From NCBI GenBank assembly GCA_900319245.1, contig ONNQ01000023.1, forward strand, positions 580-50,749: a stretch of 50,170 nucleotides of DNA. Direction: 5' to 3'. The notes below the pieces were generated by a model. That model did not search any database. It worked only from the letters and a program-made list of their open reading frames with translations, and was not told the origin of the DNA. The first letter of the stretch is position 1, and the number at the start of each line of letters is the position of its first letter. Shown piece by piece: positions 7,110 to 21,991 of this stretch. The translations under genes and the position numbers were made by a program. The stretch comes from an uncultured Lachnospiraceae bacterium (lineage in GTDB: Bacteria > Bacillota > Clostridia > Lachnospirales > Lachnospiraceae).

Positions 7110-8075
7110 TTGAAAGTGACAAGAAGAACGGCGCTTATGATGGCCCTGGTCCTGGTTCTTGCAGCGTTCACAGGCTGCGGGCAGAAGGATACGCTGCGCA
7201 TCGGTACAGCAGGCGAAGGGGGCAACTATAATTCGTTGGGACACGCATTGTCTTCCACGCTTGCGGCAGATCCCTATAAGATCAGCACAGAGGTAAAGAC
7301 GACGGCCGGCTCGGCAGCCAATATCCGCCTCCTTTCCAAGGATTATCTGGAACTGGCGCTGGCCCAGTCCGACGTCATTGACGAGATGTACAATGGCACG
7401 CTGGAAACCGCTGCCATGAAAGGCTACTCCGCGGTAGCTGCGCTGTATCCGGAACCCGTGCAGATCGTAGTGCGGGCGGATTCGCCGATCGAAAAAGTCA
7501 GCGACCTGGTCGGCACGACGGTGAGCGTCGGTGAAGAGGACTCCGGCACGCAGAAGAACGCGGTGCAGATCCTGCAGGCCTACGGCCTTACGTCCAACAC
7601 ACTGTCGGTGCAGAATATGACCTATACAGAAGCGGCCAATGCGCTCAGCGATGGATCGATTGACGCCATGTTTTGCACAGCGGGCGCACCGGCCCAGGTG
7701 ATCACCGACCTCGCAGGAGAGACGCCGGTCCGCCTCGTTTCCATCGACAGCCGGCAGAGCAGTCTTTTGACAGGGTCCTATGGATTCTACACGGAAACCG
7801 TGATCCCGGCGGGCACCTACAATGGTCAAAATACAGACGTCACGACACTGGCGGTCCAGTCCGTCCTTCTTGCCTCCAACAAGGTGCCGCAGGAGACAGT
7901 CTATGCGATCACAGGCGCTCTCTTTCAGCAAAAGGCGGCGCTTAACAGTGCGGTTCCGGTAGAATTTGACCTGCAGGAGCAGAACGCCACGCAGTCGATC
8001 ACAATTCCCTTCCACGCCGGCGCAGCCCAGTACTATGAAGAGTGCGGCATTTCGGTCGACACTGCGAAAGAGTAA
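7110..8075 (+). CDS. TAXI-family solute-binding lipoprotein
   Basis: The 321-residue protein begins with a signal peptide and lipobox (AAFTGC, lipidated Cys ~23), then a TAXI-type binding domain (LRIGTAGEGGNYNSLG; STEVKTTAGSAANIRLL; LALAQSDVIDEMY). TAXI proteins normally deliver ligands to fused TRAP membrane subunits. No TRAP membrane gene is present; instead a GltS-type symporter starts 12 bases downstream, so this protein probably captures the ligand (glutamate or a similar acid, by inference) for it. The start is TTG 7110, set by AGGAGG 7 bases upstream. A terminator precedes it, so it is first in its operon. Confidence 0.9.
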   Translation: MKVTRRTALMMALVLVLAAFTGCGQKDTLRIGTAGEGGNYNSLGHALSSTLAADPYKISTEVKTTAGSAANIRLLSKDYLELALAQSDVIDEMYNGTLETAAMKGYSAVAALYPEPVQIVVRADSPIEKVSDLVGTTVSVGEEDSGTQKNAVQILQAYGLTSNTLSVQNMTYTEAANALSDGSIDAMFCTAGAPAQVITDLAGETPVRLVSIDSRQSSLLTGSYGFYTETVIPAGTYNGQNTDVTTLAVQSVLLASNKVPQETVYAITGALFQQKAALNSAVPVEFDLQEQNATQSITIPFHAGAAQYYEECGISVDTAKE

Positions 8076-8087
8076 GGAGGGAGTTCT

Positions 8088-9284
8088 ATGCTGACTATCG
8101 AAATCAACAAATACCTGACACTTGCAATTGCGGTGGGCGTTCTCCTTCTGGGACAGTTCCTCAGAAAGAGGATCCGTTTTCTGGAAACATTCTGCATTCC
8201 GGCACCGGTCGTCGGCGGCCTGATCGTCGCCATCATTTCCTGCATCCTCTATGTGTGCGGCATCGTAGAGTTTGTCTATGACGACACATTCCGTGAGATC
8301 TGCATGGTATTCTTCTTTACGTCGGTGGGATTCCAGGCCAATCTCGCCGTCCTCAAGGAGGGCGGCAAGGACCTGATCATATTCCTGATCCAGGTCATTC
8401 TGCTCATCATTCTGCAGAACGTGCTGGCAGTCGGCGTCTCCCGGCTTCTCGGCGTCAATCCGCTGGTCGGACTGTGCACAGGTTCGGTCCCCATGGTCGG
8501 CGGACACGGTACAGCCGGCGCCTTTGGTCCGGTCATCGAGGACTTCGGAATTCAGGGTGCAACAACGATCGCAACAGCGGCGGCTACGTTTGGCCTGATC
8601 GCAGGCAGCTTGATCGGCGGGCCCCTTGGAAATTCCCTGATCAAGAAGTATAATTTGCTTGAGACTGCAAAGTCGGCCGATGAGGGCAATGATATCTTTG
8701 AAGAAGATGAAGAGCAGCATGTCAGGCACTCTGACCAGTACGCGCCGGCGGTCTTTGAGCTGTGCGTGACAGTGGGTCTGGGGACGCTGGTTTCCGCGCT
8801 CTTAACCATGACCGGCATGACCTTCCCGGTCTATATCGGTGCCATGATCGTCGCGGCGATTATCAGAAACGTCGGTGAGTACACCGGCAAGATCAAGGTC
8901 TACATGGGCGAGATCAACGACCTCGGCGGTATCTGCCTGTCGCTCTTTCTTGGCATCGCCATGATCACCCTCAAGATCTGGCAGCTGGCCGCGCTTGCGC
9001 TTCCTCTGGTCATCCTGCTTCTGGTACAGCTGGTATTTATGTATCTGTTTGCAAGATTTGTGATCTTTAGGTTTACAGGCGCCGATTACGACGCGGCTGT
9101 CATCACCGCCGGAACCTGCGGATTCGGTATGGGAGCAACGCCCAATGCGATGGCCAACATGCAGGCGATCTGCGACAAATATGTGCCTTCGATCAAGGCC
9201 TACCTGCTGATCCCGATCGTCGGAAGTCTCTTTGCGGATTTCATCAATTCGCTTGTGATTACATTTTTCATCAATTTGGTCTGA
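8088..9284 (+). CDS. gltS: GltS-type Na+:glutamate symporter
   Basis: This 398-residue membrane protein matches the sodium/glutamate symporter family: ~10-11 membrane segments in two inverted halves. The re-entrant loops are visible as GSVPMVGGHGTAGAFGP and TAGTCGFGMGATPNAMANM. A charged cytoplasmic stretch (DEGNDIFEEDEEQ) separates the halves. GGAGGG just before ATG 8088 gives the start. It lies directly between a TAXI binding lipoprotein and a small conserved-looking ORF, implying a binding-protein-assisted version of a carrier that usually works alone. Ligand identity is inferred from the family. Confidence 0.92.
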   Translation: MLTIEINKYLTLAIAVGVLLLGQFLRKRIRFLETFCIPAPVVGGLIVAIISCILYVCGIVEFVYDDTFREICMVFFFTSVGFQANLAVLKEGGKDLIIFLIQVILLIILQNVLAVGVSRLLGVNPLVGLCTGSVPMVGGHGTAGAFGPVIEDFGIQGATTIATAAATFGLIAGSLIGGPLGNSLIKKYNLLETAKSADEGNDIFEEDEEQHVRHSDQYAPAVFELCVTVGLGTLVSALLTMTGMTFPVYIGAMIVAAIIRNVGEYTGKIKVYMGEINDLGGICLSLFLGIAMITLKIWQLAALALPLVILLLVQLVFMYLFARFVIFRFTGADYDAAVITAGTCGFGMGATPNAMANMQAICDKYVPSIKAYLLIPIVGSLFADFINSLVITFFINLV

Positions 9285-9306
9285 CAGAAAGGAAGGAGCG
9301 CCACGA

Positions 9307-9495
9307 ATGAGTGCGAACAAAAAGCTTCATGTACAGATAGAGAATCTTGCTATGCCTGAGATCCATACCGATTCCTATGAAGAGAAGCAGAAGAAATCAG
9401 ATGTGGATGAGAACAAGGAGCGCAAGGAGAAGGACGTTGTCTATGACAACGTTGCGATTCCGGAGATTCATTTTCGCAAGAAGAAAAAGCAGTGA
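9307..9495 (+). CDS. Small charged protein with duplicated N-x-A-x-P-E-I-H motif
   Basis: A 62-residue soluble, very charged protein preceded by GGAAGGAG and only 22 bases after gltS, so probably translated with it. Its notable feature is an internal repeat: ENLAMPEIH (12-20) and DNVAIPEIH (47-55) joined by a Lys/Glu/Asp-rich, probably helical linker, with a basic tail (RKKKKQ). There is no signal peptide or membrane segment. I do not recognise a family. The position suggests a cytoplasmic accessory of the TAXI-GltS system, which is inference. Confidence 0.7.
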   Translation: MSANKKLHVQIENLAMPEIHTDSYEEKQKKSDVDENKERKEKDVVYDNVAIPEIHFRKKKKQ

Positions 9496-9567
9496 CACAT
9501 AGACCGGTAAAGTCTTTGGATACCGGAATGACGAATCAATATACAGCATACAAAAGGGGAAACAGGG

Positions 9568-10923
9568 ATGAAGACTTTATCTAAAGGGAAAATGTGGTGT
9601 TTCGCGATCGGACAGTTCGGCTGGTCGCTTCTGTCAGCGCTGATCACGAACTGGCTGGTCTATTTTTACCAGCCTGACGCGGATTCCATCGCCGCGGGAC
9701 AGACGCTGTTCATTCCGCAGGGACGCGTGATTCTCGGAATTGCCACCGTGATCGGCGGCATTGCGGCGCTGGGAAGAGTGTTTGACGCAGTGACAGACCC
9801 GATGATCGCGAATCTGTCCGACAGGTCCCAGAATCCCAAGGGACGCAGGATCCCGTTTATGCAAAAGATCGCAATCCCGTTTGCGCTGATCACCGTATTG
9901 GTGTTCTGGGCGCCGGTCAATGCGATTTCGACAGTGAACTGCGTGTGGCTTCTGGTCACGCTCTTATTGTTCTATCTGTTCATGACAACCTACTGCACGC
10001 CCTATAACGCGTTGATCTCAGAACTGGGAACCACACAGGACACCCGCATCAGTATTTCGACCTATATATCCGTCACCTTCCTTCTGGGATCCGCGATCGG
10101 CTATGCGGCGCCTTTTATCTGGGGCGCGATGGAGCCCTCCCTGGGGAGAGTGATGGCCATCCGCGTCACCTTTGCGATTCTGGCGGTAATCGGCCTGGCC
10201 GCGCTTTTGGTGCCGACCTTCACGATCAATGAGAAGGAATATGTGCACACGGTGCCCTCGGAAGACGACGCATTCACATCCCTGATCAAGACCTTCAAGA
10301 ATGGTGATTTCCGTGTCTTCGTCGGAAGCGACGTCCTCTATTTCCTGGGACTGACCATCTTCCAGACAGGCCTTCCCTTCTTTATCACATCGCTGATGAA
10401 GCTGCCGGAGACCTTTACGACGATCCTGTATGTGGCCATGACGCTTCTGTCCTTCGCCTGCTACATGCCGGTCAACGCGCTGGCACACCGCATGAACAAG
10501 AAGAAGCTGGTTCTGATCGGCTTCGTCGGCCTGTCCATCGTATACCTGATCACGGCAATTTCCGGCCTTCTGGGCGGCTCCGGCCTTGTATTTGGCATTA
10601 TCATTGTCTGTGCCGCGGCGTTCCCTATGGCAATCCTTGGTATTTTGCCGCAGGCGATCGTAGCGGATATCGCGGAAGCGGACGCCATTGTGACAGGTGA
10701 GAACCGGGAGGGTATGTTCTTCGCGGCGAGAACCTTCGCATTTAAATTTGGCCAAAGTATTGCTATGCTGATCTTTACGGCCTTTGCCAGCATTGGCCCA
10801 GAGACCGGTCTGGGGTACCGGATTGCGGCGGTCTCCGCGGCTGTGATCTGCCTTGCAGGCGCATTGATCCTGTCCCGCTATAACGAAGAGAAGATCCTTG
10901 GCATTATCGTGCCCAAAGAATAA
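9568..10923 (+). CDS. GPH-family sugar:cation symporter (MelB-like MFS)
   Basis: The 451-residue protein has 12 predicted membrane segments and the GPH signature: an N-terminal FAIGQFGWSLLSALI helix, the cation-site motif FDAVTDPMIANLSDR near residue 75, and RRIPFM after it. GPH carriers import glycosides, pentosides or hexuronides with Na+ or H+. GGGG-AACAGGG precedes the ATG. An imperfect hairpin (CCGGTA 9504-9509 / TACCGG 9521-9526) lies in the leader. No glycosidase is adjacent, so the sugar cannot be guessed. Confidence 0.88.
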   Translation: MKTLSKGKMWCFAIGQFGWSLLSALITNWLVYFYQPDADSIAAGQTLFIPQGRVILGIATVIGGIAALGRVFDAVTDPMIANLSDRSQNPKGRRIPFMQKIAIPFALITVLVFWAPVNAISTVNCVWLLVTLLLFYLFMTTYCTPYNALISELGTTQDTRISISTYISVTFLLGSAIGYAAPFIWGAMEPSLGRVMAIRVTFAILAVIGLAALLVPTFTINEKEYVHTVPSEDDAFTSLIKTFKNGDFRVFVGSDVLYFLGLTIFQTGLPFFITSLMKLPETFTTILYVAMTLLSFACYMPVNALAHRMNKKKLVLIGFVGLSIVYLITAISGLLGGSGLVFGIIIVCAAAFPMAILGILPQAIVADIAEADAIVTGENREGMFFAARTFAFKFGQSIAMLIFTAFASIGPETGLGYRIAAVSAAVICLAGALILSRYNEEKILGIIVPKE

Positions 10924-10972
10924 ACAATCGTGTAATGGGGTGAGGAATTCGAAGGATGGGAGATGGAATCCT

Positions 10973-12076
10973 ATGACCGGATGTAGCACAGCAATTTTGT
11001 GCGGCGGTCTGAGCCGGCGCATGGGCGAAGACAAGGCGTCTCTTGCCTTTAAGGGCGTGCCGCTGGCCAGATATAAATGGGCGCAATTTGCAGGTGAAGA
11101 TGCGGAAGTGTTCTTCTCTGTCCGCGACAAAGAGCAGGGGGATCAGATTGAGAGACTTGTGGGAGGCAAGGCGGCGGCGCTGGCAGATGATCCGGCGGGC
11201 TGCGGGCCTTTAGGAGGAATCTGCACCTCCCTTCGCCACTGCCGGCAGGACTATCTGTTCGTGACAGCAGTGGATATGCCTTATTCGGATCTTGCAATCG
11301 CGGAAGAACTGATGCTGCGGATCGGAAGCCCTGAGAGCGCCGAAAGCAAACCGTGGGACGCGGTCGTTCCCGTCACGCTGGATGGGAAAGAACATCCGCT
11401 TTGCGCGGTCTATCATAAGCGCTGCCTTCCGATTCTGGAGGGACAGCTTGCAAACGGCAATTTCAGAGTGCGGGATGCGCTGGCAGGGCTTCGCGTGTGC
11501 TATGTCCCGTCCGAGGCGCTTACGATGGGAGAGAAGAAGCTGACCAATATGAACAATCAGGCTTCGTACAGAATGGCTGTGCAGGCGGCGGCGTCCGTCT
11601 ACTCGCTGATCGCCTGGTCCGATACCGGAAAGACGACCTATCTGGAAAAACTGATCCCCGCTCTCAAAAAGCGGGGCGTTCGGGTCGCTGTGATCAAGCA
11701 CGACGGGCACGATTTTGACATCGATCACGAGGGAACCGACTCGGCGCGGTTCACAAGAGCCGGTGCGGACGTAGCCGGGATCTTCTCAGACACCCATGCG
11801 GCCGTCATGCTGAACGGTCCTATAGAAGCCGAGAAACTGGTGTTTTTGATCTCCATGAGCGGGACGGCCGACCTGATCCTCACGGAAGGGTGCAAAAAGG
11901 GAAAGTGGCCCAAGATCCTTCTATACAGGGAGAGCAGCGGCAAACCCATGGCGGCGGATCCGGATACCTGCGCGGCCGTCGTCTCGGATGTGCAGGTGGA
12001 TACGACAGCGCCGGTATTTCCGATCGATGACCCGGATGCGCTTGCGGCGTTTCTGTCGGGATCACTGTTCCTGTGA
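10973..12076 (+). CDS. MobA-MobB fusion, molybdenum cofactor guanylylation
   Basis: The 367-residue protein fuses two cofactor enzymes. Residues 1-~195 are MobA, which adds GMP to molybdopterin (ILCGGLSRRMGEDKA nucleotide loop; TAVDMPY). Residues ~205-367 are MobB, a GTP-binding adaptor with P-loop SDTGKTTY and IKHDGHDFDIDHEGTDSARF. I start at ATG 10973 after GGGAGATGG; the open frame back to 10898 runs into the upstream gene. The last 15 bases overlap the convergent Crp/Fnr gene. Making the bis-MGD cofactor fits the molybdoenzyme at 12934. Confidence 0.92.
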   Translation: MTGCSTAILCGGLSRRMGEDKASLAFKGVPLARYKWAQFAGEDAEVFFSVRDKEQGDQIERLVGGKAAALADDPAGCGPLGGICTSLRHCRQDYLFVTAVDMPYSDLAIAEELMLRIGSPESAESKPWDAVVPVTLDGKEHPLCAVYHKRCLPILEGQLANGNFRVRDALAGLRVCYVPSEALTMGEKKLTNMNNQASYRMAVQAAASVYSLIAWSDTGKTTYLEKLIPALKKRGVRVAVIKHDGHDFDIDHEGTDSARFTRAGADVAGIFSDTHAAVMLNGPIEAEKLVFLISMSGTADLILTEGCKKGKWPKILLYRESSGKPMAADPDTCAAVVSDVQVDTTAPVFPIDDPDALAAFLSGSLFL

Positions 12077-12745
12077 CACATTGTAAAGATGGAAGACCCT
12101 CTGATCATAATCGAGGATTCCATCTTTTTTCATGCTCGAAAGCTCCCTCGAGAGGGCGCTTCGATTGGTGCAGAGATAATCGGCCATCTCCGTGCGGTTG
12201 AGCGGGATCGTGATGGTCAAAGAACCGACCTTCTGGGCCTCCATGGACAGATAGGCAAGGATCTTCTCCCGCAAAGACGGCTTGGAAGTGATCTCGATCT
12301 TCTCTGTGAGCGCGATATTCTTGCGGCTCATCATCGTAAAGAGATTGCGGGAGAGCTGGTGGTGGAAGGGACATGCGTTTTTACAGGGGTGGAGGATCCT
12401 CTCGACCGGCAGGTACAGGACCACGGTGGGTTCCGCCGCCTTGAAATGGATGCCCCGCTCCTGATAGGCCTCGCCGACCATCACTTCTCCGAAAATCCCG
12501 TCGTCATTTGTATAAGACAGGAAGGTGCGGCGTCCCCAGACGTCCTCCTTGACTGTATGGACACAGCCGCTGATGACAAGCCCCAGCTGTTTGGCAGAGG
12601 CGTCGGGCGGCGATATGATCTGATCCTTTCGATAACTCTTTTCTATGCAGCCAAGACATCCCATCAATGTGCTGCAGTTGCCCATCGATATATTCGCAAA
12701 CATCGGGTGCTCTTGAAACGCCCGCATCAGTATATCTGCCATCAT
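12062..12745 (-). CDS. Crp/Fnr-family transcription regulator
   Basis: The ~227-residue protein has an N-terminal cyclic-nucleotide-binding-like beta roll (LGLVISGCVHTV; GIFGEVMVG) and a C-terminal winged helix-turn-helix (LNRTEMADYLCTNRSALSRELSSMKKDG). Several Cys residues (NCSTLMGCLGC near the N-terminus; HPCKNACPF in the middle) could hold an Fe-S cluster or act as a redox switch, as in FNR-type sensors, but the spacing is not the canonical FNR pattern. I start at ATG 12745 behind GTGGGA; a TTG at 12772 is possible. It is divergent from the reductase operon and a palindrome in the shared promoter fits its family. Confidence 0.9.
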   Translation of the reverse strand: MMADILMRAFQEHPMFANISMGNCSTLMGCLGCIEKSYRKDQIISPPDASAKQLGLVISGCVHTVKEDVWGRRTFLSYTNDDGIFGEVMVGEAYQERGIHFKAAEPTVVLYLPVERILHPCKNACPFHHQLSRNLFTMMSRKNIALTEKIEITSKPSLREKILAYLSMEAQKVGSLTITIPLNRTEMADYLCTNRSALSRELSSMKKDGILDYDQRVFHLYNVSQEQ

Positions 12746-12765
12746 CGTCCCACTTTCTGATCCGG

Positions 12766-12797
12766 TTAACAAACCAAATATTGTTAATGCAATAACA
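12766..12797. promoter_or_regulatory. Overlapping inverted repeats by the regulator's own promoter
   Basis: TTAACAA (12766-12772) pairs with TTGTTAA (12781-12787), and TGTTA (12782-12786) pairs with TAACA (12793-12797) with a 6-base spacer. Both lie at or just after the predicted regulator -10, so they are candidate autoregulatory operators. Confidence 0.45.
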
Positions 12798-12825
12798 TTA
12801 TAGAGCGCATTCGTTGCGTATGCAA
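12797..12825 (-). promoter_or_regulatory. Predicted sigma-A promoter of the Crp/Fnr regulator
   Basis: On the minus strand TTGCAT (12825-12820), a 17-base spacer, then a perfect TATAAT (12802-12797). Its -35 lies inside the palindrome at 12812-12827, so occupation of that site should block it. Confidence 0.6.
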
Positions 12826-12827
12826 CG
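12812..12827. promoter_or_regulatory. Perfect 16-base palindrome, candidate Crp/Fnr-family operator
   Basis: CGTTGC-GTAT-GCAACG is a perfect 6+4+6 dyad. Its centre (12819.5) lies about 41.5 bases before the predicted start of the operon transcript, the classical class II activator position, and it overlaps the divergent regulator's -35. Confidence 0.6.
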
Positions 12828-12845
12828 TAGAGATGTCTCCCATTA

Positions 12846-12854
12846 TGTTATAAT
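12846..12854 (+). promoter_or_regulatory. Extended -10 of the molybdoenzyme operon
   Basis: TGTTATAAT is a perfect extended -10 (TGnTATAAT). The -35 position (about 12826-12831, CGTAGA) has no consensus, typical of an activator-dependent promoter. Confidence 0.65.
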
Positions 12855-12933
12855 TCATAAAGAATTATGGAATAATATTGGTTAGTTTATGCAAACTTAC
12901 CAAAACAGATTCGGAAATGGAATGGAGGACACA

Positions 12934-15018
12934 ATGAAAAGGATACAATCAACCTGCAATTTCTGCGCGATTGACTGTAATCTGGACTTCTGCGTTGAAG
13001 ACGGCCGGATCGTCAGGACAATTCCCACCAAGGGATATCCTGTCAACGATGGATTCAGCTGCATTAAGGGCCTGTCGCTGAGCAAACAGCAGACAACCGT
13101 CAAGCCCGGTGCGCTGCCCAAGATCCGGCAGGCAGACGGAACCATGAAGGAAGTATCATGGGACGAGGGATTCCAGCATGTCGCAGACAAGATCAAGGAA
13201 ATCCAGGCCAAGTATGGCACAGAGAGCGTTGCGGGCATCAGTACAGGGCAGCTTACGCTGGAGGAGTTCGCGATCTTTGGTCATGTCATGAGAAATTATC
13301 TGCAGACCAATGTAGACGGTAATACACGTCTTTGCATGGCGACCGCAGCCGTCGGCCACAAGCAGACTTTTGGCTACGATGCGCCCGGCTATACTCTGAA
13401 GGATCTGGAACTGTCCGATACGCTGATCTTCATCGGCGCCAACCCTGTCGTGGCGCATCCCATTATCTGGGGCCGCCTCCGCCAGAACAAGGTGCCCGGA
13501 CATAAGATCATTGTCATCGATCCCAGAAAATCCGAGACAGCGATGAACGCCGACTATTGGTATGGCTTAAAGCCCAGAACCGATCTGGTCCTTATGTACA
13601 CGATCGCCAACATGCTGATCGAGAACGACTGGATCGACCACGGCTTCATCGAGGCGCACACCAACAAATTCGGTGAATTTGCTGAGTTCGTAAAGGACTT
13701 CACGCTGAAGAGAGGCGCAGAGGTCACAGGCCTTTCCGAGGAGCAGATCACAGAGCTTGTCGGCCTGATTCACAACGGCAAGGCCGTATCATTCTGGTGG
13801 ACCATGGGCGTCAACCAGGGCTACGAAGCGGTCCGCACGGCGCAGTCGATCATCAACCTCGCGCTGATGACCGGCAACATCGGAAAGCCCGGCACCGGCG
13901 GCAACTCCATCACCGGACAGTGCAACGCGATGGGATCCAGACTCTTTAGTAATACGACCTGCCTGTTCGCAGGCGGCGACTTTACCGATGAGAATGAGAG
14001 AGCAAGGATCGCCCGGCTGACCGGCATTGATATCGATCACGTGGCCAAGAAGCCCACCATTCCCTACAACAAGATCGTGGAGGGCATCAACGCGGGCGAG
14101 ATCAAGGGCCTGTGGATCCTGTGCACCAATCCCAGACACAGCTGGACCAACAACGAGACCTTTGCGGAAGCGACCAAGAAGCTCGACCTGTTCGTCGTAC
14201 AGGATATCTATGACACGATCGAGAGCGCGGAGAACGCAACCGTTTATTTCCCTGTCGTTCCCGGCATCAAGAAGGAAGGTACCTATATCAACCTGGAGAG
14301 AAGACTTTCCGCTATGCGTCAGGTCCTGCCTCGCGGCGAGAACGAGATTTCCGACTACGAGTGCATCCTCGGCGTCGCCAAGGCGCTCGGCATGGGCAAG
14401 GCTATCGAGAAATGGGAGACCCCCAGAATGTGCTTTGACATGCTGCGTGAGATCTCGAAGGGCAAGCCCTGCGATTTCAGCGGCGTGAAGTGGGATGAAC
14501 TGGAAGGCTCCCACGGAAGACAGTGGCCCTATCCGGAAGGCAGAGAAGAGGAGTTTGCGGCGGAAGAGAGAAGACTTTATGAGGACGGACGCTTCTATAC
14601 GCCCAACCAGAAAGCGAACTTCATGTTTGAAGAGCCTCTTCCCAACCCTTATGTTCCCAATGAGGAGTTCCCGATCGTGTTCAATACCGGTCGAGGCACC
14701 GTTGGACAGTGGCATACACAGAGCCGTACCAAGGAAGTCAAGTTCGTCGAGGACGTATCGCTCAGCAAGGCGTATCTGTTCATGAATACAGAGCAGGCCA
14801 GGGAAAACGGCATCTACGAAATGGACCGCATCCGTGTCTATTCCGTAAACGGACAGAATGCGGAGTTCTACGTCAAGATCACGGATAATGTTCCTTACAA
14901 CCAGCTCTACGCACCGATCCATTATATTGAGTGCAACAAGCTGACGCCTTCCAATTATGACAAGTATTCCAAAGAGCCCAACTACAAGGGCGGAATCTGC
15001 CGCTTTGAGAAGATCTGA
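12934..15018 (+). CDS. Molybdopterin oxidoreductase, nitrate-reductase-like catalytic subunit
   Basis: The 694-residue protein has an N-terminal [4Fe-4S] motif (C8, C11, C15, C43), the bis-MGD binding fold, and a C-terminal molydopterin-binding beta barrel (FNTGRGTVGQWHTQSRT). The probable Mo ligand is Cys134 in TRLCMATA. That context, with LELSDTLIFIGANPVVAHPI, resembles cytoplasmic/periplasmic nitrate reductases (NarB/NasA/NapA) more than formate dehydrogenases, which have Sec or Cys followed by His. There is no Tat signal, so it is cytoplasmic. The ~78 kDa size followed by ~15 and ~45 kDa partners recalls, from memory, the clostridial nitrate reductase operon. GGAGG 5 bases before ATG 12934 sets the start. 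Formate dehydrogenase or another oxyanion reductase remains possible. Confidence 0.85.
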   Translation: MKRIQSTCNFCAIDCNLDFCVEDGRIVRTIPTKGYPVNDGFSCIKGLSLSKQQTTVKPGALPKIRQADGTMKEVSWDEGFQHVADKIKEIQAKYGTESVAGISTGQLTLEEFAIFGHVMRNYLQTNVDGNTRLCMATAAVGHKQTFGYDAPGYTLKDLELSDTLIFIGANPVVAHPIIWGRLRQNKVPGHKIIVIDPRKSETAMNADYWYGLKPRTDLVLMYTIANMLIENDWIDHGFIEAHTNKFGEFAEFVKDFTLKRGAEVTGLSEEQITELVGLIHNGKAVSFWWTMGVNQGYEAVRTAQSIINLALMTGNIGKPGTGGNSITGQCNAMGSRLFSNTTCLFAGGDFTDENERARIARLTGIDIDHVAKKPTIPYNKIVEGINAGEIKGLWILCTNPRHSWTNNETFAEATKKLDLFVVQDIYDTIESAENATVYFPVVPGIKKEGTYINLERRLSAMRQVLPRGENEISDYECILGVAKALGMGKAIEKWETPRMCFDMLREISKGKPCDFSGVKWDELEGSHGRQWPYPEGREEEFAAEERRLYEDGRFYTPNQKANFMFEEPLPNPYVPNEEFPIVFNTGRGTVGQWHTQSRTKEVKFVEDVSLSKAYLFMNTEQARENGIYEMDRIRVYSVNGQNAEFYVKITDNVPYNQLYAPIHYIECNKLTPSNYDKYSKEPNYKGGICRFEKI

Positions 15019-15038
15019 TGTAGGAGGTAATGGTAATT

Positions 15039-15470
15039 ATGTATAGAATCAAAATTGACCGCAGTCGCTGCATCGGATGTCTTACGTGTGTCACGGCTTG
15101 CGTGGTCAGCCATGAGACGGAGAGCGGCGATGCGCGCAACCGTGTCGTGATCGACAGCGAGACCAAGCCGGCGCCGATCTTTTGCCGTCACTGCGAGCAT
15201 CCCGAATGCGTGTACACCTGCATGACAGGCGCTATGAAGAAAAATCCGGAGACCGGATATGTCACCTATGACAAAGAGCAGTGCGCAAGCTGCTATATGT
15301 GCGTCATGTCCTGTCCTTTCGGCATCCTCAAGCCCGACAGCATCCACTTCCGCGAGATCATGAAGTGCAATATGTGCGTACATAGAAGTGAGGATGGAAA
15401 GACCGCCAACCCCATGTGCGTGGAGAAATGTCCCATGCATGCGATCACTCTCGAGGAGGTGAAAAACTGA
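15039..15470 (+). CDS. Four-cluster ferredoxin-type electron-transfer subunit
   Basis: The 143-residue protein carries four Cys groups: CIGCLTCVTAC, CRHCEHPECVYTC, CASCYMCVMSC and CNMC with MCVEKC. This is the DmsB/HycB-type pattern that binds up to four [4Fe-4S] clusters and wires a molybdoenzyme to its electron donor. AGGAGG lies 11 bases before ATG 15039 but only 2 before an in-frame ATG at 15030, so 15039 is preferred. It lies 20 bases after the catalytic gene and its end carries the ribosome site of the next gene. Confidence 0.9.
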   Translation: MYRIKIDRSRCIGCLTCVTACVVSHETESGDARNRVVIDSETKPAPIFCRHCEHPECVYTCMTGAMKKNPETGYVTYDKEQCASCYMCVMSCPFGILKPDSIHFREIMKCNMCVHRSEDGKTANPMCVEKCPMHAITLEEVKN

Positions 15471-15471
15471 T

Positions 15472-16707
15472 ATGAAGTATGTTGTCATCGGTTCTTCCGC
15501 AGCGGGCGTCAACGCCATCAGAGAGCTGCGCAGACTGGACAAGGAGTGTCAGATCGTTCTGATCTCCAAGGACAAGGATATCTACTCCCGTTGCATTCTC
15601 CACGAGTATCTGGCCGGCAAGAGAAGTATTGAGCGCCTTCGCTTTGTTGAAAAAGATTTCGAGACGCTGTACAAGGTCGACTGGATGAAAGGCAGAGAGG
15701 CGATCGGTCTTGACAGAGAGAAGAAAGAAGTGATCCTGGACGGCGATGAGAGAGTCAGCTATGACAAGCTCCTGATCGCGACCGGCTCCCACACCTTCTT
15801 CCCGCCGATCAAGAATATGCTCGGCTCCCCCAATATGATCGGCTTCCGCAACATCGACGATATCGAAGTCCTCAAGGAAGTGGCCAAGACCCACAAGAAT
15901 ATCGTGGTCCTCGGCTCCGGACTTGTCGGCATTGACTGCGCGACCGGTTTCCTGGAGCTTGGCGTCAAGGTCGTTCTGTGCGATTTCGCCGGCTGGCTTC
16001 TCAACAAGCAGCTGGACCAGAGAGCCGCCCAGACCTATATCGATGCCTTTAACGCACATGGCGTTGAGCAGCACTACGGCGTCGGCGTCAATGAAGTGAC
16101 GATCAATGATCAGCACGAGATCACGGAAGTGATCCTCAGCGACGGCACAGTGATCCCCTGCGATTTCTTCGTCGTTACCGCAGGTGTTCGCTCCAACGTC
16201 GAATTCCTTAAGGACAGCGGCCTGGAACTCAGCCGTTTTGGCCTTGTCTATGACGAGACCGGAAGGACCAGCGATCCGGATATCTACGGCGCAGGCGATG
16301 TGTCCGGCACAAGTCCGATCTGGCCTGTCGCTGTCAAGGAAGGCATGATCGCCGCTGCCAATATGGCCGGCTACAATGAGAAAATGACGGACTTCTTCGC
16401 AAGTAAGTCCACAATGCGGTTCCTCGAGATCAGCACAATGTCCCTTGGCAATGTGAATCCCGATCCCGCAGACGAGAGCATTCAGGTAGAGACATACGAA
16501 AAAGGCGACGTCTACAAGAAGATCGTCCACCAGGACGGCAAGATCATCGGCGCGCTCCTGCAGGGAGACCTGGCATATGGCGGCGTACTGCAGCAGATGA
16601 TCGCCCGCAAGATCGATGTCCGCAAGGTCAAGAAGCCTCTGTTTGACATCGACTACTCTGATTTCTTCCATATCAGAGACAATACCTATGAGTTCTATTA
16701 CGATTGA
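15472..16707 (+). CDS. FAD/NAD(P)H-dependent oxidoreductase of the reductase complex
   Basis: The 411-residue protein is a pyridine-nucleotide-disulfide-type flavoprotein: FAD motif VVIGSSAAGVNA at the N-terminus, NAD(P)H motif VVLGSGLVGIDCA near residue 145, and a second FAD motif DIYGAGDVSG near 275. It resembles the N-terminal half of NirB and rubredoxin/ferredoxin reductases. The redox-active Cys pair of disulfide reductases is absent, so electron transfer is more likely. It starts 1 base after the ferredoxin stop, with GAGGAGGTG inside that gene, so translation is probably coupled. Likely role: pass NADH electrons through the ferredoxin to the molybdoenzyme. Confidence 0.88.
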   Translation: MKYVVIGSSAAGVNAIRELRRLDKECQIVLISKDKDIYSRCILHEYLAGKRSIERLRFVEKDFETLYKVDWMKGREAIGLDREKKEVILDGDERVSYDKLLIATGSHTFFPPIKNMLGSPNMIGFRNIDDIEVLKEVAKTHKNIVVLGSGLVGIDCATGFLELGVKVVLCDFAGWLLNKQLDQRAAQTYIDAFNAHGVEQHYGVGVNEVTINDQHEITEVILSDGTVIPCDFFVVTAGVRSNVEFLKDSGLELSRFGLVYDETGRTSDPDIYGAGDVSGTSPIWPVAVKEGMIAAANMAGYNEKMTDFFASKSTMRFLEISTMSLGNVNPDPADESIQVETYEKGDVYKKIVHQDGKIIGALLQGDLAYGGVLQQMIARKIDVRKVKKPLFDIDYSDFFHIRDNTYEFYYD

Positions 16708-16725
16708 TAAAGGAGATTGTGACAA

Positions 16726-17670
16726 ATGAGTCGTTTAGAAAAAATTCCGGTACCCTGTATTGCCACATTCCTGAGTTTTCTGACTCTGGGTAATGTATAT
16801 GGAGGCCTCGGCTTCGTATGGCTCCGCTATCTGATCATGGCACTGGGCACGATTTTCATGATCTGCTATATCCTGAAATTGGCCATGTTCTCGAAGACAT
16901 GCCTGAGCGAGTATGAGCAGACGATCCCGGCCAGCCTGTATGGCGCCTTCAGCATGGTACTGATGGTCCTTGGTAGCTTTTATTACGAGATCGGTCTTCC
17001 CTTCGGCAAGATCATCTGGTTTATAGCGGTCGCGATCCATTGTGTTCACATCATTGTTTTTACGATCAAGCACACATTTGGCAAAGTAGTGATGCCCAAG
17101 AATTTCATCAACATGATGCCCAGCTGGTACGTTACCTACAACGGCTGGATGGTCGCATGTGTGACCGGCGGCAAGATGAACGCCGGCCCGATCCTGAAGT
17201 TCATCACGATCTATGGATGCATCATCTATGTCGTGCTGCTTCCGTTTATGATCTGGAGACTCTTCAATGTGGAGATCAAGAACGCCGCGTATCACACAAT
17301 GGCCGTTCTTCTGGCGCCCTGCAGCCTTTGCGTCGTCAGCTTGATCAATGTAAACGGACAGAACAACGGAATTGTCCTGACATTTATGTATATCTGCGTA
17401 CTGGCATCTCTGGCCTTTATCCTGTATAAGCTCCCGGATTTCTTCTCCTTTGATTTCTATCCGGGATTTGCGGGACTTACCTTCCCGATGGCGATCGGCG
17501 TTGTGGCGTCCCAGAAGATGGCCGGCTATCTGATCGAGAAGGGCAGCGAAGGCCTCGGCAATGCGGTCACCCAGCTCGTCGGAGTGCAGATTTTTGTGAC
17601 CACTATGCTGGTCGGTTATGTCATGCTGATGTTCCTCAGAATGCTTTTAAAGAAACAGAAGAGGGGCTGA
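16726..17670 (+). CDS. TDT-family (TehA/SLAC1/SSU1-type) anion channel or transporter
   Basis: The 314-residue protein has about ten membrane segments and begins with the typical KIPVPCIATFLSFLTLGN stretch of the tellurite-resistance/dicarboxylate transporter family. That family includes SLAC1-type nitrate/chloride channels, TehA and the yeast sulfite pump SSU1. AAGGAG lies upstream of the ATG and the gene follows the flavoprotein by 18 bases. Placed between a nitrate-reductase-like complex and a siroheme reductase, it most likely moves nitrate, nitrite or sulfite; which one cannot be told from sequence. Confidence 0.82.
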   Translation: MSRLEKIPVPCIATFLSFLTLGNVYGGLGFVWLRYLIMALGTIFMICYILKLAMFSKTCLSEYEQTIPASLYGAFSMVLMVLGSFYYEIGLPFGKIIWFIAVAIHCVHIIVFTIKHTFGKVVMPKNFINMMPSWYVTYNGWMVACVTGGKMNAGPILKFITIYGCIIYVVLLPFMIWRLFNVEIKNAAYHTMAVLLAPCSLCVVSLINVNGQNNGIVLTFMYICVLASLAFILYKLPDFFSFDFYPGFAGLTFPMAIGVVASQKMAGYLIEKGSEGLGNAVTQLVGVQIFVTTMLVGYVMLMFLRMLLKKQKRG

Positions 17671-17690
17671 CGCAGCAAATTGATCTTGCT

Positions 17691-17723
17691 TGTACAGGCC
17701 GCCCGCATTTGGCGGCCTGTACA
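17691..17723. other. Perfect 13-base-pair hairpin without U-tract between TDT and asrA
   Basis: TGTACAGGCCGCC (17691-17703) pairs perfectly with GGCGGCCTGTACA (17711-17723) around a 7-base loop. The next bases are GAATAGGATA, so it is not a classical terminator. It may be an RNA-processing or stabilising element that sets different levels of the upstream and downstream halves of the operon. Confidence 0.7.
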
Positions 17724-17766
17724 GAATAGGATAAATGGCTGGTAAGCAGCAGAAGGGAGGCAAAAA

Positions 17767-18792
17767 TTGGGTTATGTTCTGACAAAAGAAGGGTTTGACA
17801 AAGCCCTGAAGAAACTCGCGGAGGAGAGACTGATCTATGCGCCGGTCCTCAAGGTGGGTGAAGGAAGGTTTACGGACACGGACGTTGTCCGCTATGACTA
17901 TGTGACAGAGCTGTCACAGATCGAGCTTTCTAAGAAGTCCGATTATGCATTCAAAGAGATCCTGACGCCTCTGTCTGAGACCCTGTTCTTCTTTACAGAG
18001 AACGAGGTGAAGACAGCGGACAGAGACACCAGAGAAGTGATCGTGTTCCTGAAGAGCTGCGACATGCACGCAGTGCGCCGTCTGGACCAGATCTACATGA
18101 ACAACGGCATTTCTGTCGATCCTTTTTACAAAGAAGTGCGCGACAGACTCAAATTCGTCCTGATCGGATGTCAGAAGTCCGGCGCGGATTGCTTCTGCGT
18201 GGATATGGGCACCAACAAGACCACAGACGGTTATCTCTTCTCGATTGACGTGATCGGCGATGAGATTTACTGCGACGTCAAGTGCGACGACGTTGCTGCG
18301 ATCTTCTCAGAATGCGGCGGCAGAGAAGAAGCAGTAGAGCCCAAATATGTGACAGAGAACGCGACACATGTCACGATTCCGGCAGAGGTTCCGAACAGCA
18401 TTTACAAGAATCCCGTTTGGGACGAGTACAGCGTGCGCTGCATCGGCTGCGGCCGCTGCAATTTCGTATGTCCTACCTGCACCTGCTACACAATGCAGGA
18501 TGTGTATTATACAGAGAACGGAAAAGTCGGCGAGAGAAGAAGAGTCGGCGCTTCCTGTATGGTAGACGGCTACACCAACGTGGCCGGCGGCGGACAGTAC
18601 AGAAGGACCAAGGGAGAGAGAATGCGCTTCAAGGTCCTTCACAAGATCTTCGATTTCAGAAAGAGATTCGGCTATGACATGTGCGTCGGCTGCGGCCGCT
18701 GCGACATGGTATGTCCGGAGTACATTTCGTTCTCCGCATGCATCAACAAGGTCAACAAGGCAGTAGAGGAGGTGCAGAATGGGAGCAACTAA
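17767..18792 (+). CDS. asrA: Anaerobic sulfite reductase subunit A
   Basis: The 341-residue protein matches AsrA, the ferredoxin-like electron-entry subunit of anaerobic (dissimilatory-type, siroheme) sulfite reductase. Two [4Fe-4S] motifs are visible in the C-terminal part: C225-x2-C228-x2-C231-x3-C235 and C306-x2-C309-x2-C312-x3-C316. The start is TTG 17767, supported by GGGAGG 6 bases before it. It overlaps asrB by 14 bases, with the asrB ribosome site inside its last codons. It takes electrons from AsrB or ferredoxin to AsrC. Confidence 0.93.
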   Translation: MGYVLTKEGFDKALKKLAEERLIYAPVLKVGEGRFTDTDVVRYDYVTELSQIELSKKSDYAFKEILTPLSETLFFFTENEVKTADRDTREVIVFLKSCDMHAVRRLDQIYMNNGISVDPFYKEVRDRLKFVLIGCQKSGADCFCVDMGTNKTTDGYLFSIDVIGDEIYCDVKCDDVAAIFSECGGREEAVEPKYVTENATHVTIPAEVPNSIYKNPVWDEYSVRCIGCGRCNFVCPTCTCYTMQDVYYTENGKVGERRRVGASCMVDGYTNVAGGGQYRRTKGERMRFKVLHKIFDFRKRFGYDMCVGCGRCDMVCPEYISFSACINKVNKAVEEVQNGSN

Positions 18793-19585
18793 TATGCAGA
18801 ACAATCCTTATGTGCCTTGGCCTTCCAAGATCCTGGATGTGATCAAGCACACGCAGAAGGAATATACATTCCGTATGGAATATGTCGGGGAGGTAAAGCC
18901 CGGACAGTTTTTTGAAGTATCGATGCCAAAATACGGCGAAGCACCGATCTCTGTCTCCGGCATCGGCCCGAACTATGTGGACCTGACGATCCGCAAAGTC
19001 GGCCGCGTCACAGGGGAAGTGTTTGAAAAATATAAAGGACAGAGTCTCCTCCTTCGCGGACCTTACGGAAACGGCTTTGATACCAGCCTGTATGAAGACT
19101 GCGAGATGATCGTAGTCGCAGGCGGCACCGGCGTTTCTCCGGTACGCGGCGTCATTGACGCGCTGGCAGAGACCAAGGCACCCAAGGACAAGCATGTGAT
19201 CGTCGGCTTCAGAAGCCCTGACGACATGCTCTTTAGAGACGACCTCAAGAGATGGGATGAAAAGCTCGATCTGATCCTCACCGTTGACGGCGCACCGGAA
19301 GGCTACACCGGCAATATCGGTCTGGTCACCAAGTATATTCCGGACGTTCCGATCCGCGACCTTGAGACGGCGCAGGCAGTCGTCGTCGGCCCGCCGCCCA
19401 TGATGCGCTTCTCCGTGATGGGCCTTCTGCAGAAGGGCTTCAAGGAAGAGAACATCTGGGTATCCCAGGAGCGCAAGATGTGCTGCGGCCTTGGCAAATG
19501 CGGTCACTGCAGAGTCGGCGAGAAGTACATCTGCCTCGACGGTCCTGTATTCAACTACACAGTCAGCAAAGACATGATCGACTAA
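18779..19585 (+). CDS. asrB: Anaerobic sulfite reductase subunit B
   Basis: This 268-residue flavoprotein has a ferredoxin-NADP+-reductase-like fold: a FAD-binding beta barrel (GQFFEVSMPKYGEAPISVSG), an NAD(P)-binding domain (VVAGGTGVSPVRGVID), and a C-terminal [2Fe-2S]-type Cys group (MCCGLGKCGHCRVGEKYIC) as in dihydroorotate dehydrogenase subunit PyrK. It accepts electrons from NADH for sulfite reduction by AsrC. GAGGAGG 5-7 bases upstream supports ATG 18779. An in-frame ATG five codons later is a less likely start. Confidence 0.94.
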   Translation: MGATNMQNNPYVPWPSKILDVIKHTQKEYTFRMEYVGEVKPGQFFEVSMPKYGEAPISVSGIGPNYVDLTIRKVGRVTGEVFEKYKGQSLLLRGPYGNGFDTSLYEDCEMIVVAGGTGVSPVRGVIDALAETKAPKDKHVIVGFRSPDDMLFRDDLKRWDEKLDLILTVDGAPEGYTGNIGLVTKYIPDVPIRDLETAQAVVVGPPPMMRFSVMGLLQKGFKEENIWVSQERKMCCGLGKCGHCRVGEKYICLDGPVFNYTVSKDMID

Positions 19586-19610
19586 GGAAACGGGAAGGAG
19601 GAATAATACT

Positions 19611-20600
19611 ATGGGTATGGATGTGAATCTGAAAAAACTGAAAAAGAACGCCTTCCGTTACTCCAAGGTCAGAGGCGAGACAGCGTCCCGCGTTCGTATT
19701 CCCGGCGGCGTCATCGGCGCAAAGAGCATGCTCCGCATCACCGAGATCGCTGAGAAGTACGGCAACGGAACGATCTTCATCACGAACCGCCAGGGTGTCG
19801 AGATCCCCGGCATCAAGATGGAGGATATGGATGCGGTCAACAAGGAGCTGCAGCTGATCATCGATGAGTCCGGCGTCAATCAGGAAGTCTATGAGGGCGG
19901 TTATCCGGCCTCCGGCACCAGAAACGTGGTCGCCTGTCCCGGCAAGAGACTTTGCCCCTTCGGGTGCTATGACACGACGGCGTTCGCGCAGAGAATGGAC
20001 AAGGAGATCTTCCCCAACAACCTGCACATGAAAGTGGCCTTCACAGGCTGCTCCAATGACTGCGGCAAGGTTCGCATGGACGACTTTGGCATCATCGGTA
20101 TGACGGAGCCCCAGTATGATCCCGACCGCTGCGTGGGCTGCGAGCAGTGCGTCAAGTACTGCAAGATCCGTTCCACCGGCGCCCTTTCCCTTGTAAACGG
20201 AAAGGTTGTCAGAGACCCCAATCTCTGTGTCGGCTGCGGCGTCTGCGTCACTTACTGCCCGACCCGTGCATGGACCAGAAGTAAAGAGCATTACTTCCGC
20301 GTCGTCATCATGGGCCGCACAGGCAAGAAGAATCCCCGTCTGGCAGAGGACTTCCTGCGCTGGGCAGACGAAGAGAGCATCGTCAAGATCGTTAAGAACT
20401 GCTATGCGTACGTCGAGGAGTATATCGACAAGAACGCACTGGAAGGCAAAGAGCACGTCGGCTATATCGTCGACAGAACCGGATACGAGGAATTCCTCAA
20501 GTATGTCATGGAAGGCGTGGAGCTGCCTGAGAAGGCAGAAGTCGCATCCCGCATCTACTGGGGCGGCAAGCACTATGACAGAGTCAACGAACTTCACTGA
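19611..20600 (+). CDS. asrC: Anaerobic sulfite reductase subunit C (siroheme catalytic subunit)
   Basis: The 329-residue protein is the catalytic siroheme-[4Fe-4S] subunit. The coupled cluster motif is complete: C109-x5-C115 (CPGKRLC) and C147-x3-C151 (CSNDC). Two ferredoxin clusters follow: C174/C177/C180/C184 and C206/C209/C212/C216. The family reduces sulfite to sulfide with six electrons; related siroheme enzymes reduce nitrite to ammonium by the same chemistry. GGAAGGAGG stands before the ATG. It is the last gene before a terminator, 25 bases after asrB. Confidence 0.95.
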   Translation: MGMDVNLKKLKKNAFRYSKVRGETASRVRIPGGVIGAKSMLRITEIAEKYGNGTIFITNRQGVEIPGIKMEDMDAVNKELQLIIDESGVNQEVYEGGYPASGTRNVVACPGKRLCPFGCYDTTAFAQRMDKEIFPNNLHMKVAFTGCSNDCGKVRMDDFGIIGMTEPQYDPDRCVGCEQCVKYCKIRSTGALSLVNGKVVRDPNLCVGCGVCVTYCPTRAWTRSKEHYFRVVIMGRTGKKNPRLAEDFLRWADEESIVKIVKNCYAYVEEYIDKNALEGKEHVGYIVDRTGYEEFLKYVMEGVELPEKAEVASRIYWGGKHYDRVNELH

Positions 20601-20626
20601 TCCGGCATAATACGGTATAATGTGAG

Positions 20627-20658
20627 TACGGGGTCGCCCAGCGCGGCCCCGTATTGTT
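20627..20658 (+). terminator. Terminator-like hairpin after asrC
   Basis: TACGGGG-CGC (20627 on) pairs with GCG-CCCCGTA (ending 20653), followed by TTGTTTA. The weak U-tract may allow read-through into moeA. Confidence 0.6.
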
Positions 20659-20659
20659 T

Positions 20660-20683
20660 AGGGATACATTTAGGGATACATTT
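20660..20683. repeat. 12-base tandem duplication upstream of moeA
   Basis: AGGGATACATTT occurs twice in direct succession. A small hairpin (AATCCAT / ATGGATT) follows at about 20693-20712 in the moeA leader. Confidence 0.6.
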
Positions 20684-20746
20684 GGAATCGAGAATCCATG
20701 ATCCTATGGATTTTCAGGGGACATTTTCGACGAAAGGATGCGCGTT

Positions 20747-21991
20747 ATGGTAGAGAGACCGGATTTTGAGACAGCGAGAGACCTTCTCCTTGCATATACG
20801 CCGGTGACCGGCACGGAGGAGATCGGACTTAGCGGGAGTGCGGGCAGAGTTTTGGCACAGGAGATCCTGGCCGCGGAGGACGTGCCCGGTTTTGACCGGT
20901 CCCCCTATGACGGCTACGCGTTTCGTGCGCAGGACGTGCAGGGCGCAGATTCGCTTCATCCGGTGACACTGTCCGTTGTGGACGCGATTGCGGCGGGCGA
21001 AGTACCCCATGCAGCGATCACAATCGGCACGGCGGCGCGCATCATGACCGGTGCGCCGGTGCCAAGCGGAGCAGACGCCATCGTGCCCTATGAAGTGACC
21101 AGGTTTACGGATACCGAGGTCCAGATCTTTCAGGAAGCCGCTGCGGGGCAAAATATAGTCCGACGGGGCGAAGACGTGCAAAAAGGGCAGCGTTTGGCCG
21201 CCCCCGGCATCAAGATCGACGCGGGACTCTGCGGCGTCATGGCCGCGCAGGGCGTCTTCCGGCCCAGGGTCTATAAAAAGCCTGTCGTGGGGATCATCTC
21301 CACGGGAAGTGAGCTTGTCGATGAGGGACAGCCGCTGTCACCGGGCAAGATATACAATACCAACCGCTACACACTGGAGGCGGCCTGCGCGTCGCTCGGG
21401 TGCCAGCCGGTCTACCTCGGAATGGGAAAGGACAGCACGAAAGAGATTGCGGACCTGATCCTGCGCGGCGTGCAAGGTACAGACGCACCGCGTTGTGACG
21501 TGGTCCTCCTCACAGGCGGCGTTTCGGCAGGCGATTTCGATCTGACGCCCGACGCGATGCAGATGGCGGGGACGAAGGTCCTCATCCGCGGGCTGAACCT
21601 CAAGCCCGGCATGGCGGGTGCATACGGAGTGATCCAAAAAGACAATGCGATTCCAGTCCTCGCCTTTTCCGGCAATCCGGCCGCCTGTATGACGGCCTTC
21701 TGGCTTGTCGGCGCGCCGGTCCTTAGAAAGCTTGCGGGATGGAATAAGCCGCGCCTTACAGAAATCCGGTGCGCGCTGATGAACCGGTTCCCCAAGAAGT
21801 CAGGCGCGACGCGGGTTCTGCGGGGAAAACTTGTCTTCACAGAGGGAAAGGCCTGTCTGGCCATCGATGAAAAACAGGGGAACAGTGTGCTTAGTTCGGC
21901 AATCGGTACAGACCTTCTGGCGGTGATTCCAGCCGGCAGCGGTCCCATGGAAGCGGGAGCGGTTCTTAGAGGCTTTAGGATCACAGATTAA
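20747..21991 (+). CDS. moeA: Molybdopterin molybdenumtransferase MoeA
   Basis: The 414-residue protein inserts molybdate into adenylylated molybdopterin. MoeA signatures are RSPYDGYAFRAQDV, RIMTGAPVPSGADAIVPYE, the MPT-binding domain ISTGSELVDEG and LTGGVSAGDFD, and FSGNPAACMTAFWL. The length matches the family. ATG 20747 is chosen because AAAGG lies ~9 bases before it, while ATG 20738 directly abuts that site. With MobA-MobB it brackets the molybdoenzyme operon, so cofactor supply and enzyme are genetically linked. Confidence 0.94.
   Translation: MVERPDFETARDLLLAYTPVTGTEEIGLSGSAGRVLAQEILAAEDVPGFDRSPYDGYAFRAQDVQGADSLHPVTLSVVDAIAAGEVPHAAITIGTAARIMTGAPVPSGADAIVPYEVTRFTDTEVQIFQEAAAGQNIVRRGEDVQKGQRLAAPGIKIDAGLCGVMAAQGVFRPRVYKKPVVGIISTGSELVDEGQPLSPGKIYNTNRYTLEAACASLGCQPVYLGMGKDSTKEIADLILRGVQGTDAPRCDVVLLTGGVSAGDFDLTPDAMQMAGTKVLIRGLNLKPGMAGAYGVIQKDNAIPVLAFSGNPAACMTAFWLVGAPVLRKLAGWNKPRLTEIRCALMNRFPKKSGATRVLRGKLVFTEGKACLAIDEKQGNSVLSSAIGTDLLAVIPAGSGPMEAGAVLRGFRITD

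Follow-up and report, generated by a model that had tools for sequence, protein, structure and literature searches.

In Clostridium ljungdahlii, asr-like genes that are 39–42% identical to those of Salmonella adjoin the nar genes, are strongly induced by nitrate and have been suggested to encode a nitrite reductase (PMC5640608). Deletion of nar abolishes nitrate reduction in this organism (PMC9124969), and nitrate is consumed with stoichiometric production of ammonium, the genes for nitrate/nitrite reductase and transporters being more than 400-fold up-regulated (PMC4222884). The same assignment of asr was inferred for Clostridium sp. AWRP (PMC6757427), and in Acididesulfobacillus acetoxydans, AsrABC, 195-fold up on nitrate at the protein level, was proposed to be the nitrite reductase in dissimilatory nitrate reduction to ammonium; the same paper states that the enzyme had not been purified (PMC10949509). 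Clostridial asrABC has also been described as encoding a sulfite reductase (PMC2940859, PMC6041559). Here, we analyze a 50,170-nucleotide stretch of DNA (the window) from an uncultured Lachnospiraceae gut bacterium, in which genes for a NarA-like molybdoenzyme, two electron-transfer subunits, an anion channel and AsrABC lie together beside a divergently transcribed Crp/Fnr-family regulator.

The window is contig C53 of a 2.92 Mb genome assembly in 80 contigs that is 87.3% complete; family and class were taken as Lachnospiraceae and Clostridia, since the closest relatives with a name bear the title Lachnospiraceae. With a probability of roughly three in four, we consider the cluster to be a soluble, cytosolic, fermentative module, driven by NADH, that takes nitrate via nitrite to ammonium. 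A first-pass annotation of this DNA had proposed the same route. That idea is sound but not new, as AsrABC has already been put forward in print as a nitrite reductase for C. ljungdahlii (PMC5640608) and Acididesulfobacillus (PMC10949509), and the cluster is a well-supported case of a known but under-recognized kind. Its features, in window coordinates, are:

10898–12076, plus strand: MobA-MobB fusion, for maturation of the molybdopterin guanine dinucleotide (MGD) cofactor (Pfam MobB 9.5e-35, NTP_transf_3 4.4e-28)
12062–12772, minus strand: Crp/Fnr-family regulator, divergent from narA (Pfam HTH_Crp_2 and cNMP_binding; alignment with E. coli CRP)
12812–12827, no strand assigned: palindromic operator CGTTGCGTATGCAACG between regulator and narA (motif GTTGCN4GCAAC)
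12849–12854, plus strand: TATAAT -10 hexamer, which sets the operator centre at about -42
12889–15018, plus strand: NarA-like molybdopterin nitrate reductase, as predicted (PF00384, PF01568, PF04879; Cys-Met and TGQ; tree)
15030–15470, plus strand: NarB-like multi-[4Fe-4S] electron-transfer subunit (Fer4_11 2.5e-18)
15472–16707, plus strand: NarC-like FAD/NAD(P)H oxidoreductase with a Rubredoxin_C domain (Pyr_redox_2 4.1e-58, Rubredoxin_C 1.7e-9)
16726–17670, plus strand: SLAC1/TDT anion channel, candidate nitrate/nitrite carrier (PF03595 6.2e-13)
17767–18792, plus strand: AsrA (TIGR02910, 470.6 bits, cut-off 323.15)
18779–19585, plus strand: AsrB, FAD/NADH (TIGR02911, 403.6 bits, cut-off 288.6)
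19611–20600, plus strand: AsrC, siroheme-[4Fe-4S] reductase, proposed nitrite reductase (TIGR02912, 481.6 bits, cut-off 324.1)
20738–21991, plus strand: MoeA, molybdenum insertion (MoeA_N 8.9e-41)

Established directly were the identities of the genes, the residues of the active site, placement in the tree, co-occurrence, common operators with their spacing and the lack of alternatives in the assembly; substrates, electron flow, direction of regulation and transport we infer. In the module envisaged, the HcpR-like Crp/Fnr regulator (12062–12772) would bind the palindrome at 12812–12827, centred at about -42, and activate the operon. Electrons from NADH would pass through the FAD of NarC and the [4Fe-4S] clusters of NarB to NarA, whose Mo site would reduce nitrate to nitrite (two electrons). 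AsrB and AsrA would relay electrons from NADH to AsrC, where nitrite would be reduced to ammonium at the siroheme (six electrons). MobA-MobB and MoeA would most likely mature the NarA cofactor, and the TDT channel would carry nitrate or nitrite. The module would thus take eight electrons per nitrate, by which fermentation would regenerate NAD+.

All genes named in the first-pass annotation (molybdoenzyme, ferredoxin, flavoprotein, TDT channel, AsrABC, MobA-MobB and MoeA) are recognized by Pfam or NCBIfam; the divergent regulator at 12062–12772 had gone unmentioned there. The asr genes stand in the order A-B-C, each product scoring above its own NCBIfam equivalog cut-off, and the catalytic, multi-[4Fe-4S] and NADH-flavoprotein subunits are adjacent, as in the clostridial cytosolic NarABC-type nitrate reductase. 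The NarB-like ferredoxin holds 16 Cys, leaving room for four clusters (counted by eye). The molybdoenzyme reading frame spans 709 residues from its first ATG (12889) or 694 from the ATG at 12934; the latter, with GGAGG just upstream, is likely to be the true start.

The first-pass annotation had kept as its alternative a formate-type donor complex feeding sulfite reduction. The highest NCBIfam score of NarA is with TIGR01591 (Fdh-alpha, 455 bits), its nearest PDB relatives are entries of the formate dehydrogenase (FDH) type, and it stays below the NasC, NasA and NapA equivalog cut-offs (353.9/1100, 349.5/1000 and 291.2/904, respectively). The Fdh-alpha score is, however, also under its own cut-off of 666; two controls annotated as FDH reach 863 and 934, and Sinorhizobium meliloti NarB, encoded beside nirBD, likewise scores best on Fdh-alpha (469, versus 427 for NasC). 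In an alignment, the window NarA, 12 chosen relatives and the Cetobacterium protein carry Cys-Met and TGQ, as do E. coli NapA and S. meliloti NarB, whereas six FDH-type references have Cys/Sec-His (four) or Cys-Gln (two) together with RGQ or RGH. NarA thus lacks the FDH His (Gln in the FdhA type) and the conserved Arg, having Met and Thr instead. The Cys Mo ligand in a nitrate-reductase-like TRLCMATA context, which the first-pass annotation had singled out, recurs as Cys-Met, with TGQ, in 80/80 related loci.

A tree of 25 rows (14 NarA-type, six FDH and five NapA/NarB proteins, with those of C. ljungdahlii and C. perfringens absent) unites the NarA-type proteins in one clade (100/100) outside the FDH clade (100/100). 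Placement inside the FDHs, the result that the first-pass annotation had named as fatal to its idea, was therefore not found. The NapA/NarB rows form a third clade (94/93), and several joins are long branches, so that the sister group of NarA is not settled. C. perfringens also has a nar operon; a literature search returned nothing on such an operon. By residues, tree and calibrated hidden Markov model scores, an FDH identity is rejected, and any formate-type or other donor complex feeding sulfite reduction is highly improbable. Use of a different oxyanion by NarA (chlorate, selenate or arsenate), with AsrC handling the product or an unrelated substrate, is slightly less remote yet still very improbable: such activities are common in the superfamily, and the substrate of NarA is assigned by homology, but the nitrate-reductase residue pattern, the operator link to hcp and FNT genes in relatives (see below) and nar genetics in C. 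ljungdahlii (PMC9124969) speak against it. We regard a nitrate-reducing step by NarA, judged by homology, as close to certain, in line with the loss of nitrate reduction upon nar deletion in C. ljungdahlii (PMC9124969).

For the second step, the genome offers few candidates. AsrC is the sole NIR_SIR_ferr protein of the assembly, and NarA is its sole PF00384 protein, so that the MGD genes most likely serve NarA. Neither cytochrome c nitrite reductase (NrfA), prismane/Hcp nor a PAPS_reduct-family protein, which would mark a sulfate-to-sulfite route, was found in the assembly (87.3% complete; such genes could sit in the unassembled part); the first-pass observation of no NrfA or NirBD in view thus extends to the whole assembled genome. 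A siroheme-type NAD_binding_7 protein is encoded in the genome, adjoined by hemC-like and SUMT/hemD-like open reading frames (ORFs; by eye). The missing PAPS_reduct protein speaks against the view that NarA makes nitrite which leaves via the TDT channel, while AsrABC is a sulfite reductase of assimilation or dissimilation that is merely co-located and co-regulated: as far as the assembly goes, sulfite would not be obtained from sulfate by that route.

The survey of narA-like and asr genes in other Clostridia that the first-pass annotation had called for gave a uniform picture. Among 200 genomes of the family, one per genus, NarA (threshold E < 1e-130) occurs in seven and AsrC in 37, AsrC being present in 7/7 narA genomes and in 30/193 others (Fisher 4.5e-6); narA and AsrC genes lie within 5 kb on one contig in six of the seven, and on different contigs in G162. 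Among 391 genomes of the class, NarA occurs in seven and AsrC in 35 (7/7 narA genomes versus 28/384 others), again with six of seven pairs within 5 kb, the pair in G465 being about 0.7 Mb apart; several of these narA genomes share a genus and are thus not independent. Taken together, with the own genome counted in both samples, all 13 different narA genomes carry AsrC, 11 of them linked within 5 kb. No narA genome without AsrC was seen in either sample, which argues against an AsrABC confined to sulfite. One narA relative, in a one-contig genome (G366:C1:2982459-2984516), contains a single in-frame TAA.

Common operators provide a further line of evidence. Across 118 non-redundant loci (2.0 Mb, nearly all picked for nar or asr), the window motif GTTGCN4GCAAC (type A) occurs at 22 sites, against a mean of 2.2 (maximum 11) for 29 permuted arms, and it is present in 14/14 loci with a divergent Crp-narA pair as well as in L010. 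Fifteen sites precede narA, two precede asrA (L133, L155), two hcp (L131, L146) and two a regulator gene (L059, L133), and one (L146:599) has no named gene downstream of it. A second motif, CGTGAN6TCACG (type B), likewise has 22 sites (mean 1.8, maximum 13, for 59 permuted arms): eight before narA, ten before asrA, two before an fnt gene leading an asr operon, one (L074:13919) before a transporter-like ORF preceding fnt and asrABC in Clostridium drakei, and L034:115 unplaced. Type B mostly reads CCGTGAN6TCACGG; it is another Crp-type operator of these genes, seen in L012, L018, L048, L058, L060, L062, L066–L068, L070–L073, L078, L079, L132, L134, L135, L137 and L144. That operators are common to narA and asrA in relatives, one of them also standing before hcp, is a new result of this work, and one that argues against sulfite as the sole substrate of AsrABC. 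Within the part of the literature covered, we noticed no paper that links HcpR to a nar-asr regulon of clostridia.

Operator spacing is consistent with activation. Of 40 operators tested, 25 (12/20 type A, 13/20 type B) stand 29–30 bases before a -10-like hexamer (a TATAAT match at five or six positions), against a mean of 0.7 and a maximum of five in 1000 random-shift trials, many of the operator sites coming from close relatives. This gap puts the operator centre at about -42; class II activators sit at about -41.5. In six type A narA sites, the centre is at -37 instead. Aligned with E. coli CRP, the window regulator has Arg-Ser-Arg at CRP positions 180/181/185, as do the regulators of L131, L133, L146 and L155, all with type A sites, while those of L132 and L137, both with type B sites, have Arg-Glu-Arg. 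L144 (Arg-Ser-Asn despite a type B site) falls outside this pattern, and a strict type B site was not found in the Arg-Glu-Arg loci L138, L141 and L142. Three Cys lie among the first 60 residues of the window regulator, compared with none to four in the other aligned regulators. The window's genome has two further operator matches, which were taken as chance since the first falls within a MATE-type transporter ORF (by eye) and the second between ORFs that converge. The Desulfovibrio-type HcpR motif TTGTGAN6TCACAA gave no signal in the window, with 21 matches versus 17.8 expected.

Gene order was compared in the best 80 of at least 571 related nar loci. Genes for asr are present in 58/80, and in 30 of the 38 loci where narA is flanked on each side by no less than 7.5 kb, so that the grouping exceeds chance; by lineage, asrABC lies downstream of the TDT gene (as in the window), directly upstream of narA, or inverted. 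A TDT gene accompanies 67/68 nar loci with room after narC and none of 33 asr stretches without linked nar, so that TDT belongs to nar rather than to asr. The own FNT gene, considered as a partner of asr, follows a phosphotransacetylase-like ORF (by eye) on a different contig, C31, and is thus not tied to asr. One Cetobacterium somerae strain (ceto) has the nar-TDT set without adjoining asr, and in another, asrABC is separate, an FNT gene lying some 3 kb from it. To the left of the window cluster (7110–10923), an ORF for a TAXI-like binding protein (by eye) is accompanied by genes for a sodium/glutamate symporter and an MFS_2 transporter. This group recurs at the same place in the closest relatives L002–L008, incomplete in some: L002 lacks TAXI, and the short L005 lacks both TAXI and the symporter. 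Lachnospiraceae-like nar genes also occur in three records with the titles Chloroflexi, Aeriscardovia and Solobacterium (L023, L027 and L021), which are possibly mis-binned contigs.

The AsrC tree has 89 rows (82 different), 57 of them nar-linked and 32 not. A nitrite-only AsrC clade was rejected, as nar-linked AsrC are scattered among nar-free ones. The tree does show a deep split between seven rows (L139, L157–L162), none nar-linked, and the other 82. AsrC of an E. coli plasmid joins the seven (13/21 diagnostic sites, versus one with the window class; long branches), and arylsulfotransferase genes adjoin asr in four of these seven stretches and lie about 3 kb off in a fifth, with no match in any other locus examined. 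Genomes G148 and G175 carry both classes, the nar-linked copy of G175 being of the window class. The split hints at a nitrogen class and a sulfur class. Tentatively, and at somewhat less than even odds, we suggest that the nar-linked class of AsrABC in Clostridia of gut and rumen may be mainly an ammonifying nitrite reductase, which HcpR-like Crp/Fnr regulators would place, even in nar-free genomes, in one nitrogen-oxide regulon with nitrate reductase and Hcp, and that the separate class, with the enterobacterial enzyme and often near arylsulfotransferases, may serve sulfite. The published sulfite role of clostridial asr speaks for mixed use of the window class (PMC2940859, PMC6041559).

Several observations weigh against the proposed module. 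AsrC is the equivalog of a sulfite reductase, all three Asr proteins passing such cut-offs; AsrC is retained in 30/193 narA-free genomes of the family; and asr is lacking near eight of the 38 full-flank nar loci (L010, L029, L058, L060, L062, L068, L078, L079), all as a sulfite reductase beside nar would have it. Over the AsrC tree, the nar label switches 11 or more times, at least eight of these switches being forced by well-supported branches, and since nar-linked AsrC form no clade, AsrC sequence does not mark nitrite specificity. In the genome of the window, the operator is in promoter position only at nar, and hcp was not found in the assembly. The bracket of MobA-MobB and MoeA noted in the first-pass annotation holds for the window and is not general: such genes occur in 37/80 loci, being present in L002 and absent from L003–L008 within the stretches examined, so the Mo-cofactor bracket is common, not fixed. 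As to other organisms, asr mutants of Salmonella no longer reduced sulfite but still reduced nitrite (reported in PMC10949509). For C. ljungdahlii, one model has hydroxylamine reductase as a step of its own (PMC4222884), and other work suggested that its two putative hydroxylamine reductases take nitrite to ammonium (PMC7219301); the kinship of the window with the C. ljungdahlii nar/asr proteins rests on gene order and family names. Still, the pairing of AsrC with narA in 13/13 genomes, the common operators, the absence from the assembly of any other nitrite reductase and the nitrate induction of the asr-like genes of C. ljungdahlii (PMC5640608) bear out the first-pass assignment. Based on these results, we consider nitrite reduction by AsrC likely, and a sulfite-only AsrABC unlikely.

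By its parts, the nitrate-to-ammonium route would need no cytochrome or quinone, and strict fermenters could hence use it as an ammonifying electron sink. In one survey of the rumen, NarG, NapA and NrfA served as the markers of nitrate ammonification, and AsrA was placed under sulfate/sulfite reduction (PMC6776011). Surveys of this kind would overlook the use of nitrate by organisms like the host of the window and take them for users of sulfite; if nar-linked AsrABC is mainly a nitrite reductase, scoring asrA as a sulfite marker would miscount nitrate ammonifiers. Operators common to narA, asrA and hcp strengthen the prior proposal of AsrABC for nitrite, and offer a cheap test of AsrABC as a physiological nitrite reductase.

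Compared with known regulators, the window protein resembles HcpR in being a Crp/Fnr protein with a 5-4-5 palindrome, the consensus of most other HcpR being GTAACnnnnGTTAC, in its Ser at CRP position 181, found also in HcpR2 of C. difficile and C. thermocellum with their deviating motifs, and in the placement of hcp under the same operator in relatives (PMC1274295). It differs in its operator, GTTGCnnnnGCAAC, which stands before nar (before asr in relatives) in an assembly without hcp; predicted HcpR regulons of Desulfuromonas/Geobacter include nrfHA and a nar operon (PMC1274295). Among enzymes, AsrABC has the same three annotated subunits as the Salmonella/E. coli type, although the E. coli plasmid AsrC falls in the separate class (long branches). 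In Acididesulfobacillus, the nitrate step is taken by NarGHI, far from asrABC by locus number, and a NirA-like enzyme is a rival for nitrite (PMC10949509), unlike in the window. The nar-transporter-fnt-asr locus of C. drakei (L074) is akin to the window (identity 63% for NarA, 77% for NarB, 53% for NarC and 49/57/58% for AsrA/B/C) but carries, between nar and asr, an FNT gene and an ORF resembling major facilitators (by eye), with no TDT match. C. ljungdahlii differs in a candidate proton/nitrate symporter in its cluster (PMC5640608) and in two putative hydroxylamine reductases (PMC7219301), no Hcp having been found in the assembly of the window. With its nar operon (CLJU_c23710-30), the window shares catalytic, electron-transfer and NADH-oxidase subunits and asr-like genes beside nar (PMC5640608, PMC9124969), to which it adds a TDT channel, MobA-MobB and MoeA.

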